Positions 55,103-61,699 of a stretch of DNA of 64,000 nt are shown here, in pieces. The stretch covers positions 1 through 64,000 of the forward strand of contig JABCZC010000009.1 of NCBI GenBank assembly GCA_013289875.1, given 5' to 3'. The number at the start of each line of letters is the position of its first letter. The first letter of the stretch is position 1. The position numbers were made by a program, and so were the translations under genes. The stretch is from Acidobacteriota bacterium. Lineage in GTDB: Bacteria; Acidobacteriota; Terriglobia; Terriglobales; Acidobacteriaceae. Under the pieces are notes generated by a model that ran no database searches, was not told the origin of the DNA, and worked only from the letters and a program-made list of their open reading frames with translations.

Positions 55103-55942
55103 TTAGCCCGCGGCGAGTTCTTTTGCTCGCTGCGTGGCACGCATGACAGCTTTGATGAGGGTGACGCGCAGGCCACCTTCTTCGAGCTCCAGGATGCCGT
55201 CGATGGTGCATCCGGCAGGCGTGGTTACCGCGTCCTTGAGCAGCGCGGGATGGTAACCCGTTTCCAGCACCATGCGGGCTGCGCCGTAGGTGGTCTGGGC
55301 GGCGAGTAGCGTGGCGATGTCGCGGGGCAGTCCAACCTTGACTCCGGCCTCGGCGAGCGATTCGAGAATGATGTAGATGTAGGCTGGACCGCTGGCTGAG
55401 AGGCCGGTGACAGCGTCCATGTGCTTCTCGTCGACGATGACGGTGCGGCCAATGGTCTCGAAGATGCGGGTGGCGAAGGCCATTTGCGGCTCGGTGACGT
55501 AGCGGCCGCGGCAGAGCGCGGAGATGCCCGCACCCAGCATGGATGGTGTGTTGGGCATGGAGCGGATGACGGGAATTTCGATGCCTGCGGCCTGTTCGAT
55601 GGCAGCTGTTTTTACGGAGGCGGCGAAGGAAATGAGTAGTTTGCCGGTGGTGAGCGCCGGGCTGATCTGCGCGATCAGATCGGGGATCTGGAAGGGTTTG
55701 ACGCCGAGCAGGATAACATCGGCCTGCTCGACTACGGCGCGGTTGTCGGTCGAGACTTGGACACCCCACTGCGCGGAGAGCGCCGCGGCGCGGTCGGCGT
55801 GGGCGACGGTGGCGAGAAGTTGGTCAGGGTGCAGGATCTGTTGTTTGAGGAAGGCCTGGATGAGAATTCCGCCCATCTTGCCGGCTCCGAGCACGGCGAC
55901 ACGTAACTTTGAGAGATCCTGGTCGATTGCTGCGGTGTTCAT
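55103..55942 (-). CDS. proC: pyrroline-5-carboxylate reductase
   Basis: VAVLGAGKMGGILIQAFLKQ, VIRSMPNTPSMLGAGISALCRG, VTGLSASGPAYIYIILESLAEAGVKVGLPRDIA. Confidence 0.96.
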   Translation of the reverse strand: MNTAAIDQDLSKLRVAVLGAGKMGGILIQAFLKQQILHPDQLLATVAHADRAAALSAQWGVQVSTDNRAVVEQADVILLGVKPFQIPDLIAQISPALTTGKLLISFAASVKTAAIEQAAGIEIPVIRSMPNTPSMLGAGISALCRGRYVTEPQMAFATRIFETIGRTVIVDEKHMDAVTGLSASGPAYIYIILESLAEAGVKVGLPRDIATLLAAQTTYGAARMVLETGYHPALLKDAVTTPAGCTIDGILELEEGGLRVTLIKAVMRATQRAKELAAG

Positions 55943-56007: not shown

Positions 56008-57840
56008 CTATTTGGATTTCTGGGCGGCGATCCAAGTGTCGATACGCCCTTCGAGGATGTCCATGGGCAGAGCGCCAGAGTCGAGGACCTGGTCGTGGAA
56101 GGCGCGGATGTCGAATTTTGCGCCAAGGGTTTGCTGGGCGCGAGTACGGAGTTCGAGGATTTTCAGCTGGCCGATCTTGTAGCCGAGCGCCTGACCCGGC
56201 CAGGCGACGTACCGGTCGACCTCGGCCTGGATGTTGGTGTCGTCCATTGAGGAATGGTCGCGGAAGTAGGAGAGCATCTCGTCGCGCTTCCAGTGCATGG
56301 AGTGAACCCCGGTGTCGATGACCAGGCGGATGGCGCGCCAGGTGTCGGCTTCGAGGCGTCCGTAGTCGGACCATGGGTCCTGGTAGAAGCCGATCTCTTT
56401 GCCGAGGCGCTCGGAGTAGAGAGCCCAGCCTTCGGTGTAGGCAGTGTAGTAGGTGTAGCTGCGGAACTCGGGAAGACCCGTGAGCTCCTGCGCAATGGAG
56501 ATCTGCAGGTGATGGCCGGGAATCCCTTCGTGATAGCTGATGGATTCTACGTTGGTGAGCGCGCGGTCCTTGAACTTGTAGAAGTTGACGTAAACGGTTC
56601 CGGGACGCTTGCCGTCCGCGGTGCCCTGCACGTAGTAGGCCTGGGTCTGGTCCTGCTGCATGTATTCGGGAACGGGCAGGACGACGAGGGGAGCCCTGGG
56701 TAACGTTCCGAAGAGCTCAGGTAGCTTCGGCCGCATCTGGTCGAGATAGTGGCTGTAAAGTCCGATGAGCTGATCGGTCGACTGCGCGTGCAGTTTGGGA
56801 TTGGACGGAATGGAAGCGCGCAGGGACGCGAGATCTTTAAAGCCGAGCTTCTGCGCGATGACCAGCATCTCGGCTTCGTCGCGCTTCACCTCGTCGAGCC
56901 CGAGCTGGTGGATGGCGGCCGGCGCGAGGCTGGTGGTGGTGCTCTGGCGTACGAGGAAGGCGTAGTACTTGTCTCCGTCGGGGAGGGACCAAAGGCCGGG
57001 ATCGGCCCGGCCTGCAGGGATGTACGACGCCGTGAGAAAGCGTCCGAATTGCGCGTAGGCGGGCAGGACCTGCTTCTGGATCGCTTCGAGAACGGCGGCC
57101 TTGATGCGGGTCTGGTCTTCGGCAGAGATGCTTGCCGGGAATTTTTGCAAGGGACGCGCGAAGGGCGAGTCCTCAGGCTTCTGCTGTGCGATGGCATTGA
57201 CCTGAACGAGGACCTTTTCGAGAAGATATTTCGGCGGGACGCGGTTATCTTCGACGCCGGTCATCATGTTGGTGCTGATCTGCTGAAAGACGGTGGGGAT
57301 TTTCGAGAGACGCGAGGTGTAGTCGTCGTAATCTTTGACGGTTTCGAAGGTGAGGAGCGGAACCAGCTGGGGCAGCTCGATGTGCGGGCCCCACATCTGC
57401 GTGACGGGCATCTCCCACGGCTTGAATTCGGCTTCCTCCTGCTGCTCGACGAGCTTGCGCACCATCAAATCGTGGCTGAGGATCTCCTGATCGGTCAGGC
57501 CGGTGGTATCGATGGCGGCGAGTCGAACGATGTAGTCGCGGCCGCGAGCAAGCTGGTCGTTGTAGGCGGCGACAGAGTAGTCGGAGAGCTGGTCGTTGTA
57601 GCGCTTGTCGCCGATGGAGGATGCAAACTCCGGGGAGTGGCGGAGTTGCTCCTCCCACATCTCGGCGAAGAGCGCATTGAGCGCGGCGCGGCGGTCTTCG
57701 AGGGTGAGGGGGATAGCTGGTGACGTTGGGCCGGGCAATCTCTGGGTTCCGGCTGATTTGCTGACGGATTTGGGAAAGGTTTGAGCGAGGAGCGGCAGCG
57801 AAAGGAAGGCGGCGAGGCCGAACGCAAAGAGTTTCTTCAT
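56008..57840 (-). CDS. secreted DUF885 domain-containing protein (putative zinc peptidase)
   Basis: signal peptide; SISYHEGIPGHHLQISIAQE, YTEGWALYSERLGKEIGFYQDPWSDYGRLEADTWRAIRLVIDTGVHSMHW. Confidence 0.92.
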   Translation of the reverse strand: MKKLFAFGLAAFLSLPLLAQTFPKSVSKSAGTQRLPGPTSPAIPLTLEDRRAALNALFAEMWEEQLRHSPEFASSIGDKRYNDQLSDYSVAAYNDQLARGRDYIVRLAAIDTTGLTDQEILSHDLMVRKLVEQQEEAEFKPWEMPVTQMWGPHIELPQLVPLLTFETVKDYDDYTSRLSKIPTVFQQISTNMMTGVEDNRVPPKYLLEKVLVQVNAIAQQKPEDSPFARPLQKFPASISAEDQTRIKAAVLEAIQKQVLPAYAQFGRFLTASYIPAGRADPGLWSLPDGDKYYAFLVRQSTTTSLAPAAIHQLGLDEVKRDEAEMLVIAQKLGFKDLASLRASIPSNPKLHAQSTDQLIGLYSHYLDQMRPKLPELFGTLPRAPLVVLPVPEYMQQDQTQAYYVQGTADGKRPGTVYVNFYKFKDRALTNVESISYHEGIPGHHLQISIAQELTGLPEFRSYTYYTAYTEGWALYSERLGKEIGFYQDPWSDYGRLEADTWRAIRLVIDTGVHSMHWKRDEMLSYFRDHSSMDDTNIQAEVDRYVAWPGQALGYKIGQLKILELRTRAQQTLGAKFDIRAFHDQVLDSGALPMDILEGRIDTWIAAQKSK

Positions 57841-57862: not shown

Positions 57863-58903
57863 TTAGCGCAGTGTAGATGATGCCGGAGGGAGTGGGTAGC
57901 TGGAGGCGCCCGGAGCACTCGCGCTGGTGGAATTGGAGCTGCCGGTTTCGAGCAGTCGATAGAGGGTGGAGCGGCTGATGCCGAGCATACGTGCTGCGCG
58001 AAGCTTGTTGCCGGCCACGCGGGCGAGCACAACATTGATGTGGCGCAGGATGGCGCGATCGAGGTTGGGGTCATCCTCGGCGGGCACGGAGACGAATGTC
58101 TGGGACAAAGGTGTTGGGGAAAGCACCGGGACATCGATGGGCCGAATCCACTGGCCTTCGCACTCGAGGGCCGCGCTGTGGATGACGCTCTGGAGTTCGC
58201 GCACGTTGCCCGGCCACAGATGCGAACTAAGGCGAGGCAGGGTGAGCGGGGCAAGTCCGCGGACCGGCTTGCCGTGCGTGGCGGAGAAGCGTTGCGCGAA
58301 GTAATCGGCCAGCAGGGCGACATCGTCGCGCCGATCGCGCAGGGGCGGGATGGCAAAGCGAATGGCGGTGAGGCGGTGGCACAGATCGGCCCGGAAAGCG
58401 GGGGAAGCGGAGAGCTTACGCAACGGATGGTTGGAGCTGAAGAAGAGTTGCCGGGGAATGGAGTCCACAGTATGGCGCGCGTGCTGATGATCGAGCCACT
58501 GCAGAAGGGCGAGCAGACGTGCCTGCTGTTCGAGTGAGAGCTCTTCGACGTGGGTCAAGAAAAGGGTGCCCCCGCGGGCGTCTCTCATTACTGGCATGAG
58601 CGGGACGAGCGAGGGGCCGTGTTGGAAGAACTGTACTGCGGGACACGGAACGAGGGGCGCCGCGGACACCGGGCCGAGATCATGGAGCGTCTGCGCGGCG
58701 AGTGCTTTGCCCGCGCCGCTCTCGCCTTCCACCGTAGCAATGCGCAAATGGCGCGAGGTGGTGCGCATCTGTGAGAAGAGCCTCTGCATGACCGGGCTGC
58801 GCCCGACCATAGCTCCGAGGGTCCACTCGGGATGATCGGCAATTACATGCGGCGTAGACGCAGCGGGGGCCGACACTTCTTCTATGCGTTGCGGTGAATA
58901 CAA
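57863..58903 (-). CDS. AAA+ (NtrC-like) regulator with Fis-type HTH, degenerate: no GAFTGA
   Basis: MVGRSPVMQRLFSQM, GESGAGKALAAQTLH, GGTLFLTHVEELSLEQQARLLALLQ, PPLRDRRDDVALLADYF, LWPGNVRELQSVI, C-terminal HTH GNKLRAARMLGISRSTLYRLL; TTG start. Confidence 0.88.
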   Translation of the reverse strand: MYSPQRIEEVSAPAASTPHVIADHPEWTLGAMVGRSPVMQRLFSQMRTTSRHLRIATVEGESGAGKALAAQTLHDLGPVSAAPLVPCPAVQFFQHGPSLVPLMPVMRDARGGTLFLTHVEELSLEQQARLLALLQWLDHQHARHTVDSIPRQLFFSSNHPLRKLSASPAFRADLCHRLTAIRFAIPPLRDRRDDVALLADYFAQRFSATHGKPVRGLAPLTLPRLSSHLWPGNVRELQSVIHSAALECEGQWIRPIDVPVLSPTPLSQTFVSVPAEDDPNLDRAILRHINVVLARVAGNKLRAARMLGISRSTLYRLLETGSSNSTSASAPGASSYPLPPASSTLR

Positions 58904-58969
58904 GGCCCTGTTCCTCTGGGATATGGTCCCCTGCGAATACAGGGCTTATCGGCAGAGGCGCGGGAAAAT

Positions 58970-59812
58970 TTAGGGAGTCAGGATCTGTTCGCCCCTGCCA
59001 TGCCCGCTCTTGGTGGAGTGCCCTGCCTGCCCGGGATGACGGATGCGGGAGGATGGCTCGTCGGAGAAAATCTTTCCGTCGCGAATATGGACGATGCGGT
59101 GGGCGAACTCGGCGATATCCGGTTCGTGGGTCACGAGCACGATCGTGTTGCCTTTGGAATGCAGATCGTCGAACAGGGCCATGATTTCATCGCCCGTCTT
59201 CGAATCGAGGTTGCCAGTGGGCTCGTCGGCCAGGATGATGGATGGCCGGTTGATGAGCGCGCGGGCGATGGCCACGCGCTGGCGTTGTCCGCCGGAGAGC
59301 TCGTTCGGCTTGTGGTGCATGCGTCCGTCAAGATTGACCGCTCTCAGAGCCGTTTGAGCGCGCTCCAGACGCTGCGCGGCAGGCGTGCCGTTGTAGATCA
59401 GGGGCAGTTCAACGTTATGCAGAGCGGTGGCGCGGGCCAGAAGGTTGAAGGTCTGGAAGACGAAACCGATTTCTTTATTGCGGATCCGGGCGAGCTCGTC
59501 GTCGTTCAGCTCGCTGACCAGATGTCCATTGAGCCAGTACTTGCCCTGACTGGGAGAGTCGAGGCAGCCGATGAGGTTCATGAGCGTCGATTTGCCGGAG
59601 CCTGAAGGGCCCATGATCGCGACGTATTCATTGTGCCGGATGCTGAGCGAGATGCCTTGAAGAGCATGCACCTGCTGCTCCGAGCCCATGTCGTAGGTCT
59701 TCCAGATATCCTCGACAACGATCACGTCACCCTCGGGCACAGCCGAGCGGGTCTTCTCTTCCGCGTAAGGGGCCGTAATGGGATTCGTATCGGTGGTGGT
59801 CTCGGTCGTCAT
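58970..59812 (-). CDS. ABC transporter ATP-binding protein (MacB/LolD type)
   Basis: [65 protein letters not shown]. Confidence 0.95.
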
Positions 59813-60036
59813 CCGGTGCTCCTGTTCAGCCCGTGGGATTAAGCAACTTCAGGGTTTTTCGTGCCATACGCTAAGAATACAGGGTGGCGGTTTCCCAGGG
59901 GGAAAAGCCGCCTGATTTTGTCAACCGCATCCAGTGACCATGATTTTGCTGTAGGCGCTGTAATTTCGCATTGGCGCACATCTCTGTACGCTTTGGACGC
60001 GCACGCGGTTCCAACGGTAATCCGCGCACCCGAGAA

Positions 60037-61401
60037 CTACGATCCCGAGGACTCGCTATCCTTGGGAGGCGCGACAGGCGTAGTGTCACGCTTCACCAGG
60101 GCGTTATTTTTGAGGTCGCGCAATACATGGAAGGTTCCGGTGACAATTTCGTCGCCGGGCTTCACGCCGCTGGTGACTTCGATGTCGGTCGTGCCGGTGA
60201 TGCCGGTAGTGACGGGGACGAAGTGGGCGCGCAATTTGCCCTTTTCATCTGCCAGAACGAAGACGCCCTGAACCTGCTTCTGCGTGGGATCGGGGGCCGC
60301 GTCTGGCTTTGCTCCCGGCACATCAGGAGCGCGCATGGCAAGCGCCTGAATGGGAATGGCGATTACGTCGTTTTTCCTGGCGGTCTCGATTTTCGCGGTG
60401 GTTGAAAGGCCCGGACGAAGTTCGTCAGAGGGATTGTCCAGAGTGATGACAACCTTGAAATCCTTGGCTTCTTCCTGACCGCTGGTGGACTGGCTGGTGG
60501 CCACGCCTGTCGACCGCAGCAGAGCCTGGTCTCCGACCTCGGTGACGTGCCCTTTGAAGACCTTTCCCGGGAGTGCATCTACGGTGACGTCGGCAGTCTG
60601 GCCTAGGGCTACGTTGACGATGTCAGTTTCGTCGACCTTGACCTCGGCGGTGATGACCGACATATCGGCCAGCGTCATCAGGGTCGAGCCCTGGGCGTTC
60701 TGAATGCCTTCAACGACGGTTTCGCCTTCGCGGACAGGCAAGTTGGTTACGATGCCATCAAACGGGGCGACGGCCACAGTTTTGCCGAGGAGATCGATGT
60801 TGGCGCGCAGCGTGGCCTGCTGGGTATTCAGATGGCCGCGTCCGGATTGCGTCTGGGCCTTGGCCTGGGCGAGCGCGGCGTTGGATTGCGAGACGGTAGC
60901 GACAGCCAGATCGTAGGCCGCCTTCTTCGCGTCATAATCCTGCTTGGACATGACCTGGGCATCGAAGAGTCCCTTGGCGCGATCGTAGTCGAGCTTTTTC
61001 TGCTCCAGATCGGCTTTGGCGTGCTCGACGTTGGCCTCCTGGGTTTTTTCGGCGGCAATGTCAGCGGCGATATCCGTCTCAGCGGCGGCAATCGAGGCCT
61101 TCTGGCCTTCGACATTTGCGCCCTGCTGAACGTTTTCAATGCTGGCGACTTCCTCGCCTTTCGTGACCTTGTCGCCTTCCTTTACATAGAGATGCGTGAG
61201 GCGGCCAAAGGCAGTGGCTCCGAGGTTGACGTAAGTCTTGGGCTTGATCTGCCCCGTGCCGCTGACCGTCGAGACGAGGTCTTTGCGAACAGCCTTCCCG
61301 GTGATCACTTTGGTGTATCCGGATTGGGCGCGGACCACGGTGAATCCAACAATGGCTGCCACGGCGAGAACAATGACAACAACCACAATAATTTTCTTCA
61401 A
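60037..61401 (-). CDS. HlyD/MacA-like periplasmic adaptor (membrane fusion) subunit
   Basis: single N-terminal TM; VKEGDKVTKGEEVASIENVQQGANVEGQKASI, coiled coil, APFDGIVTNLPVREGETVVEGIQ. Confidence 0.93.
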   Translation of the reverse strand: MKKIIVVVVIVLAVAAIVGFTVVRAQSGYTKVITGKAVRKDLVSTVSGTGQIKPKTYVNLGATAFGRLTHLYVKEGDKVTKGEEVASIENVQQGANVEGQKASIAAAETDIAADIAAEKTQEANVEHAKADLEQKKLDYDRAKGLFDAQVMSKQDYDAKKAAYDLAVATVSQSNAALAQAKAQTQSGRGHLNTQQATLRANIDLLGKTVAVAPFDGIVTNLPVREGETVVEGIQNAQGSTLMTLADMSVITAEVKVDETDIVNVALGQTADVTVDALPGKVFKGHVTEVGDQALLRSTGVATSQSTSGQEEAKDFKVVITLDNPSDELRPGLSTTAKIETARKNDVIAIPIQALAMRAPDVPGAKPDAAPDPTQKQVQGVFVLADEKGKLRAHFVPVTTGITGTTDIEVTSGVKPGDEIVTGTFHVLRDLKNNALVKRDTTPVAPPKDSESSGS

Positions 61402-61699
61402 GCTCGTTTCCCTATAGGCGGATTTGCCAGCATCGCCTTTGGGGGGGAACTACGCAAAATCGGGACCAACGGTTCCCGACCTGGTAGTGGAGCGCCAGCG
61501 ACGCCGATGAAGTTCACACGGCGAATTCAACCCTAATGATATCAGGCTGACAGTGAAATTCAGTCGATCGGCGGTTTTGTTTCGGACGTCACAGAGAAAG
61601 ACGCGATGGTCCGGATGGTTCAAGAATGCAACAGAACGCTTGTATCTGACGTTACGAGTCCGTAAAATCAGAGAGCTGTATAGGAGCAGTAAGCGGCGT

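Follow-up and report, generated by a model that had tools for sequence, protein, structure and literature searches.

What does a regulator built like a sigma-54 activator do once the parts that touch sigma-54 and hydrolyze ATP are gone? The question is raised by a gene on contig JABCZC010000009.1 of an Acidobacteriota bacterium of the family Acidobacteriaceae, of which we analyzed the first 64,000 nucleotides (the window). The gene encodes an NtrC/PspF-like protein, here called REG. A preliminary description of this DNA had proposed that the protein probably no longer activates sigma-54 promoters and may instead be an ATP-binding sensor, a repressor, or a dominant-negative subunit. Using the motifs of REG, its orthologs, its predicted structure, and its genomic surroundings, we arrived at a reading that we hold to be probable: REG would be a nucleotide-binding, nonhydrolyzing, sigma-54-independent DNA-binding regulator that sits behind a flagellar-type promoter.

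Results

REG is a 346-amino-acid open reading frame at positions 57863 to 58903 on the minus strand, as are all window features given below. It has a TTG start codon with the sequence AGAGGA 8 nt ahead of it. The protein matched the Pfam families Sigma54_activat, AAA_lid_14, and HTH_8 above the cutoff (34.3 bits for HTH_8), and its closest relatives of solved structure by sequence were ZraR and NtrC1. With no more than about 30 residues ahead of the AAA+ domain, REG has no receiver, GAF, or PAS domain. Several features of sigma-54 activators are present. The Walker A motif (GxxGxGK) reads GESGAGK at residues 60 to 66 (58706 to 58726), the arginine-finger positions R171 and R177 (FRxDLxxR; 58373 to 58393) and the sensor II arginine R235 (WPGNVREL; 58199 to 58201) are kept, and the HTH_8 match and the structural model place a Fis-type helix-turn-helix (HTH) at 57926 to 58063. 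The recognition helix of this HTH, GISRSTLYRLL, is common to the canonical syntenic orthologs. Walker A and the HTH are therefore intact, as first described.

Two other features of sigma-54 activators were absent. The L1 region, the usual place of ELFGHEKGAFTGA, is shortened (about residues 88 to 112; 58568 to 58642); in alignments to ZraR, NtrC1, and others, REG has about 15 fewer residues from Walker A to Walker B and no GAFTGA among them, which bears out the deletion noticed earlier. The hhhhDE pattern of Walker B is also missing, with REG reading GGTLFLTHVEEL where canonical EBPs have GGTLFLDEIGEL, so that T117 and H118 (58550 to 58555) stand where the Asp-Glu pair is expected. As read from the sequence, the parts that hold nucleotide and read DNA are kept and the parts that hydrolyze nucleotide and touch sigma-54 are gone.

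Orthologs of REG were found in eight of the nine genus genomes, the window's own counted. The genus includes Silvibacterium bohemicum S15 and Acidobacteriaceae bacterium ZG23-2, and the one genome in which no ortholog was found (G006) is 74% complete. GAFTGA and DE are both missing from all seven other congeneric orthologs, which are 56 to 65% identical to REG, and from all 37 sampled rows of the window's Acidobacteriaceae clade (clade A). At the position of the catalytic Glu, clade A carries Arg in 28 rows, His in 7, Asn in 1, Gly in 1, and Glu in none; the Walker B Asp is kept in 6 rows and the sensor I Asn in 2. Thus, when orthologs were checked for TH in place of DE, loss of the Glu proved general in the clade but loss of the Asp did not. 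Across the same 37 rows, neither the sensor II Arg nor the Walker A residues G, G, G, and K vary. The recognition helix GISRSTLYR is essentially identical in clade A, in a second clade likewise without the loop (clade B), and in three canonical orthologs. A profile search read by eye recovered the same short protein from 114 of 398 sampled family genomes, in about 17 genera.

These residues bear on the proposal of a dominant-negative subunit, in which the arginine fingers and nucleotide pocket of REG would let it assemble with a canonical sigma-54 activator and poison the mixed ring. REG keeps its arginine fingers as well as sensor II and Walker A, its own genome holds about a dozen other EBP matches, sigma-54 was found in eight of the nine genus genomes, and mixed rings combining PspF with Walker B mutants have been engineered (PMC4132715). 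However, the arginine fingers are relaxed in clade A (Arg in 28 and 24 of the 37 rows), the EBPs of the same genome are only about 29 to 34% identical to REG and differ from it in the HTH in the four cases examined, and the strong conservation of the HTH argues for DNA binding by REG itself. We therefore consider poisoning of a mixed ring improbable.

Purifying selection was evident in the dN/dS ratio of REG, which was about 0.1 to 0.22 overall, an approximate range because the more distant pairs have nearly saturated synonymous sites. Within the genus, pairwise values were about 0.2 for the domain as a whole and about 0.14 to 0.17 for the Walker A region, lid, and HTH; further close pairs ranged from 0.08 to 0.17. 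An AlphaFold2 model built from a 50-sequence alignment had a mean pLDDT of 88.9, with the AAA+ domain, lid, and HTH confidently modeled, and its best Foldseek fold matches were NtrX, ZraR, and NtrC1. The dN/dS values and the intact predicted fold indicate that REG is not a pseudogene, and ortholog conservation together with dN/dS ruled out a sequencing error or pseudogene. That REG is a decaying gene or the relic of an activator would agree with the stepwise loss of its catalytic residues and with the absence of the gene, at detectable similarity, from some lineages. Set against this are the low dN/dS (about 0.1 to 0.2), frames intact across about 17 genera, an invariant P-loop and HTH, and a conserved promoter, and we regard decay as very unlikely.

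To order the losses, we used a maximum-likelihood tree built without the L1 and Walker B columns. Some Walker B strings taken by regular expression from the 105-ortholog set were mis-hits or read "?", and state changes were counted on corrected motif states. Clades A and B are both loopless, and the only syntenic orthologs that retain GAFTGA and DE (L090, L092, and L106) lie beside clade B. Parsimony gives two events of loop loss, and a single event is not rejected (AU test, P = 0.26). The states of the Glu change seven times on the tree, as do those of the Asp. Some loopless members still have DE (e.g., L109, L147, L162, and L181), and no tree member combines an intact loop with a broken Walker B, which implies that the loop went first and that catalysis decayed later. 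Orthologs retaining GAFTGA and DE had been named as a sign that REG is a decayed gene; the three that do so are distant and preserve the ancestral condition instead of pointing to recent decay. Taken together, the loss of the loop and hydrolytic residues in all close orthologs, the purifying selection, and the presence of sigma-54 in most of the genus give good support to the view that REG probably no longer activates sigma-54 promoters.

The gene order in clade A is HlyD-ABC-REG-DUF885-ProC. In the window, the conserved upstream neighbors are a HlyD/MacA-like periplasmic adaptor (60037 to 61401) and a LolD/MacB-like ABC transporter ATPase (58970 to 59812). The DUF885 gene (56008 to 57840) begins 22 nt past REG and is the downstream neighbor of canonical orthologs too, and ProC, a pyrroline-5-carboxylate reductase (55103 to 55942), is also a conserved downstream neighbor. 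Clade B and the canonical orthologs have a bacilliredoxin-like gene ahead of REG-DUF885-ProC, with the downstream genes recovered for part of the members. This gene is of the Disulph_isomer type (L100:5854-6333; also L106, L090, and L092), and clade A has hlyD-abc in its place. The HlyD-ABC ATPase pair (58970 to 61401) has no recognizable FtsX/MacB permease alongside it in the window, and the genes in the abc-REG gaps of L064, L079, L085, and L087, viewed by eye, included no obvious permease. The gap between REG and DUF885 is about 670 to 750 nt in the canonical loci L092 and L106 and, where measured, less than about 85 nt in clade B (L093, L096, L100, and L112); the short clade B gap suggests that a separate DUF885 promoter was lost.

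Alignments of the regions upstream of hlyD, between abc and REG, and upstream of REG were searched for operators; they held mainly promoter elements and no conserved palindrome visible by eye. Ahead of hlyD-abc lies an ECF-type promoter, GGAAC-N17-CGTA (61451 to 61476), and GGAAC-N15-18-CGTA occurs in 24 of 26 syntenic loci versus 0.5% of shuffles. This hlyD upstream motif had been a candidate REG site and was rejected once recognized as an ECF-type promoter. Another match to GGAAC-N17-CGTA occurs in the gap from hlyD to the ABC gene (59987 to 60012).

A further possibility is local control, in which REG would repress or activate the DUF885-proC or hlyD-abc genes next to it by way of sigma-70 or ECF promoters. 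Consistent with such a role, DUF885-proC lies downstream in canonical and degenerate loci alike, and a separate, conserved ECF-type promoter precedes hlyD-abc. However, the upstream partner is not the same between the clades, and inspection of the aligned upstream regions by eye revealed no conserved palindrome; we judge local control to be unlikely.

No convincing -24/-12 site was seen at the window or at most clade A loci, and none was consistent among canonical loci. Because the canonical loci likewise lack a consistent site, its absence near the locus is weak evidence. The search bears on whether REG, though devoid of GAFTGA and the catalytic Glu, could still activate sigma-54 promoters by means of a different surface. 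A precedent is PspF E108Q, mutated in the catalytic Glu, which binds ATP more tightly, is a constitutive hexamer, and can remodel with ATP binding alone (PMC4132715). That activity itself still requires an intact GAFTGA (PMC4132715), however, and the vicinity of the window locus yielded no -24/-12 site. We give this alternative hardly any credence, and regulation by REG independent of sigma-54 remains our reading.

The new finding at this locus is a sigma-28/FliA-type promoter just upstream of 102 of the 105 orthologs. In the window it reads TAAATTTT-N11-GCCGATAA (58946 to 58972), about 43 nt ahead of the start codon, with its -35 element overlapping the stop codon of the ABC gene. The interval from 58904 to 58969, named earlier for footprinting, contains most of it. 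The site matches 15 of 16 positions of the Escherichia coli sigma-28 consensus TAAAGTTT-N11-GCCGATAA (PMC2859248). A GCCGATA(A/T) box was seen in the upstream alignments, and in the 102 orthologs a GCCGAT box was paired with a scored -35 element at a spacer of 10 to 12 nt, compared with 6.9% of shuffles. In genus g9 (29 loci), this promoter forms the chief block of conservation upstream of REG. Weaker versions of it also stand before the canonical orthologs, so the promoter is probably older than the loss of GAFTGA.

Flagellin genes of the window's genus are preceded by the same type of promoter (TAAAG-N-GCCGATGA), and in near-complete genomes, several motif matches adjoin flagellin or a flagellar cluster. 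In the window's genome, flagellin and FlbD genes lie at L127 (G000:C124), and a divergent promoter pair of the same type as in that genome occurs at G093:C10:46150-46274. FliA was found in five of the nine genus genomes. Of the 114 genomes with REG, 94 have FliA, compared with 158 of the 284 without REG (odds ratio of 3.7, from a hand tally that ignores kinship). Genome-wide counts of the sigma-28 pattern did not differ between FliA-positive and FliA-negative genomes. Many FliA-negative, REG-bearing genomes are incomplete assemblies. Neither FliA nor FlhA was found in the window's metagenome-assembled genome (90% complete), where flagellin is present, or in G093, G360, G299, and G296 (97 to 100% complete), where the GCCGAT box is kept. 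Promoters in such near-complete genomes may be relics after a recent loss of FliA, or another sigma factor may read the site. Although the sigma factor is thus a matter of inference from the motif, the promoter suggests a role for REG late in the motility program.

Discussion

TyrR, DhaR, HupR, and Rhodobacter capsulatus NtrC have sensory or receiver domains, and FleQ, FlrC, and FlgR are best known for their role at sigma-54 promoters. REG shares the AAA+ core, lid, and Fis-type HTH of the canonical EBPs PspF, ZraR, and NtrC1, and like PspF it has no N-terminal sensory domain; unlike these proteins, it lacks GAFTGA, the catalytic Glu, and the sensor I Asn, and the Walker B Asp is lost in most of its clade. 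FleQ, FlrC, and FlgR are motility-linked members of the EBP family, whereas REG lacks the GAFTGA loop and is tied to motility only by the type of its own promoter.

Loopless EBP homologues that act at sigma-70 promoters, such as TyrR, DhaR, and HupR, are already known (PMC3162934). In E. coli TyrR and DhaR and in R. capsulatus HupR and NtrC, the GAFTGA region is deleted or defective, the rest of the AAA+ fold is kept, and activity is described as depending on sigma-70 (PMC3162934, PMC10274813). REG is also a loopless EBP fold but, unlike these four, has neither a sensory or receiver domain nor a Walker B pair and has a sigma-28-type promoter upstream. According to PMC10274813, R. capsulatus NtrC requires ATP binding and not hydrolysis, and VpsR of Vibrio cholerae, which has no GAFTGA and acts at sigma-70 promoters, reportedly does not require ATP. 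VpsR was a fold match to the REG model (7v2b); it binds c-di-GMP and has a receiver-like domain, which REG lacks. In Caulobacter NtrC, a deletion of L1 removes GAFTGA, as in REG, and the protein regulates sigma-70 promoters, but its function requires Walker A and Walker B residues (PMC10274813), and Walker B is broken in REG. Beside TyrR, HupR, and VpsR, REG would be a sensor-less and probably hydrolysis-dead loopless descendant.

We propose that the ancestor of REG was a PspF-like, sensor-less sigma-54 activator (AAA+ domain plus HTH) upstream of DUF885-proC in Acidobacteriaceae and that it probably already had a sigma-28-type promoter. One or two events would have removed the L1/GAFTGA loop. 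The catalytic Glu and sensor I Asn, and in many cases the Walker B Asp, would then have decayed because hydrolysis no longer served the remodeling of sigma-54 RNA polymerase. The P-loop, sensor II Arg, fold, and HTH would still be under selection. REG would be produced when the sigma-28-type promoter fires. By analogy with the loopless homologues, we infer that it binds nucleotide without turnover, that the bound nucleotide fixes its oligomeric state, and that the unchanged HTH then binds DNA, so that the targets of REG would be promoters other than those of sigma-54. As to the sign of regulation, repression by occupancy seems slightly likelier than activation. Of the earlier term "ATP-binding sensor," the first half fits, given the retained Walker A and sensor II; "sensor" is weaker because REG is without a sensory domain. 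REG has probably been taken over into a new circuit as an ordinary DNA-binding regulator.

A broader proposal is that this sigma-28-controlled, catalytically dead EBP is a late-flagellar regulator throughout Acidobacteriaceae and that the family preserves a stepwise series (the loop and then the catalytic Glu and Asp) leading from a sigma-54 motor to a nucleotide-gated DNA-binding switch. We think this possible but doubtful.

The losses, as ordered here, would make one conserved locus a natural evolutionary series from a sigma-54 remodeling motor to a sigma-54-independent regulator. Their order, the contact loop and then hydrolysis, is a testable statement on what keeps an ATPase under selection. 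It would be a mistake to count as sigma-54 activators the many Acidobacteriaceae genes of this kind that match "Sigma-54 interaction domain," and the link to a flagellar-type promoter suggests where a phenotype of REG might be sought.
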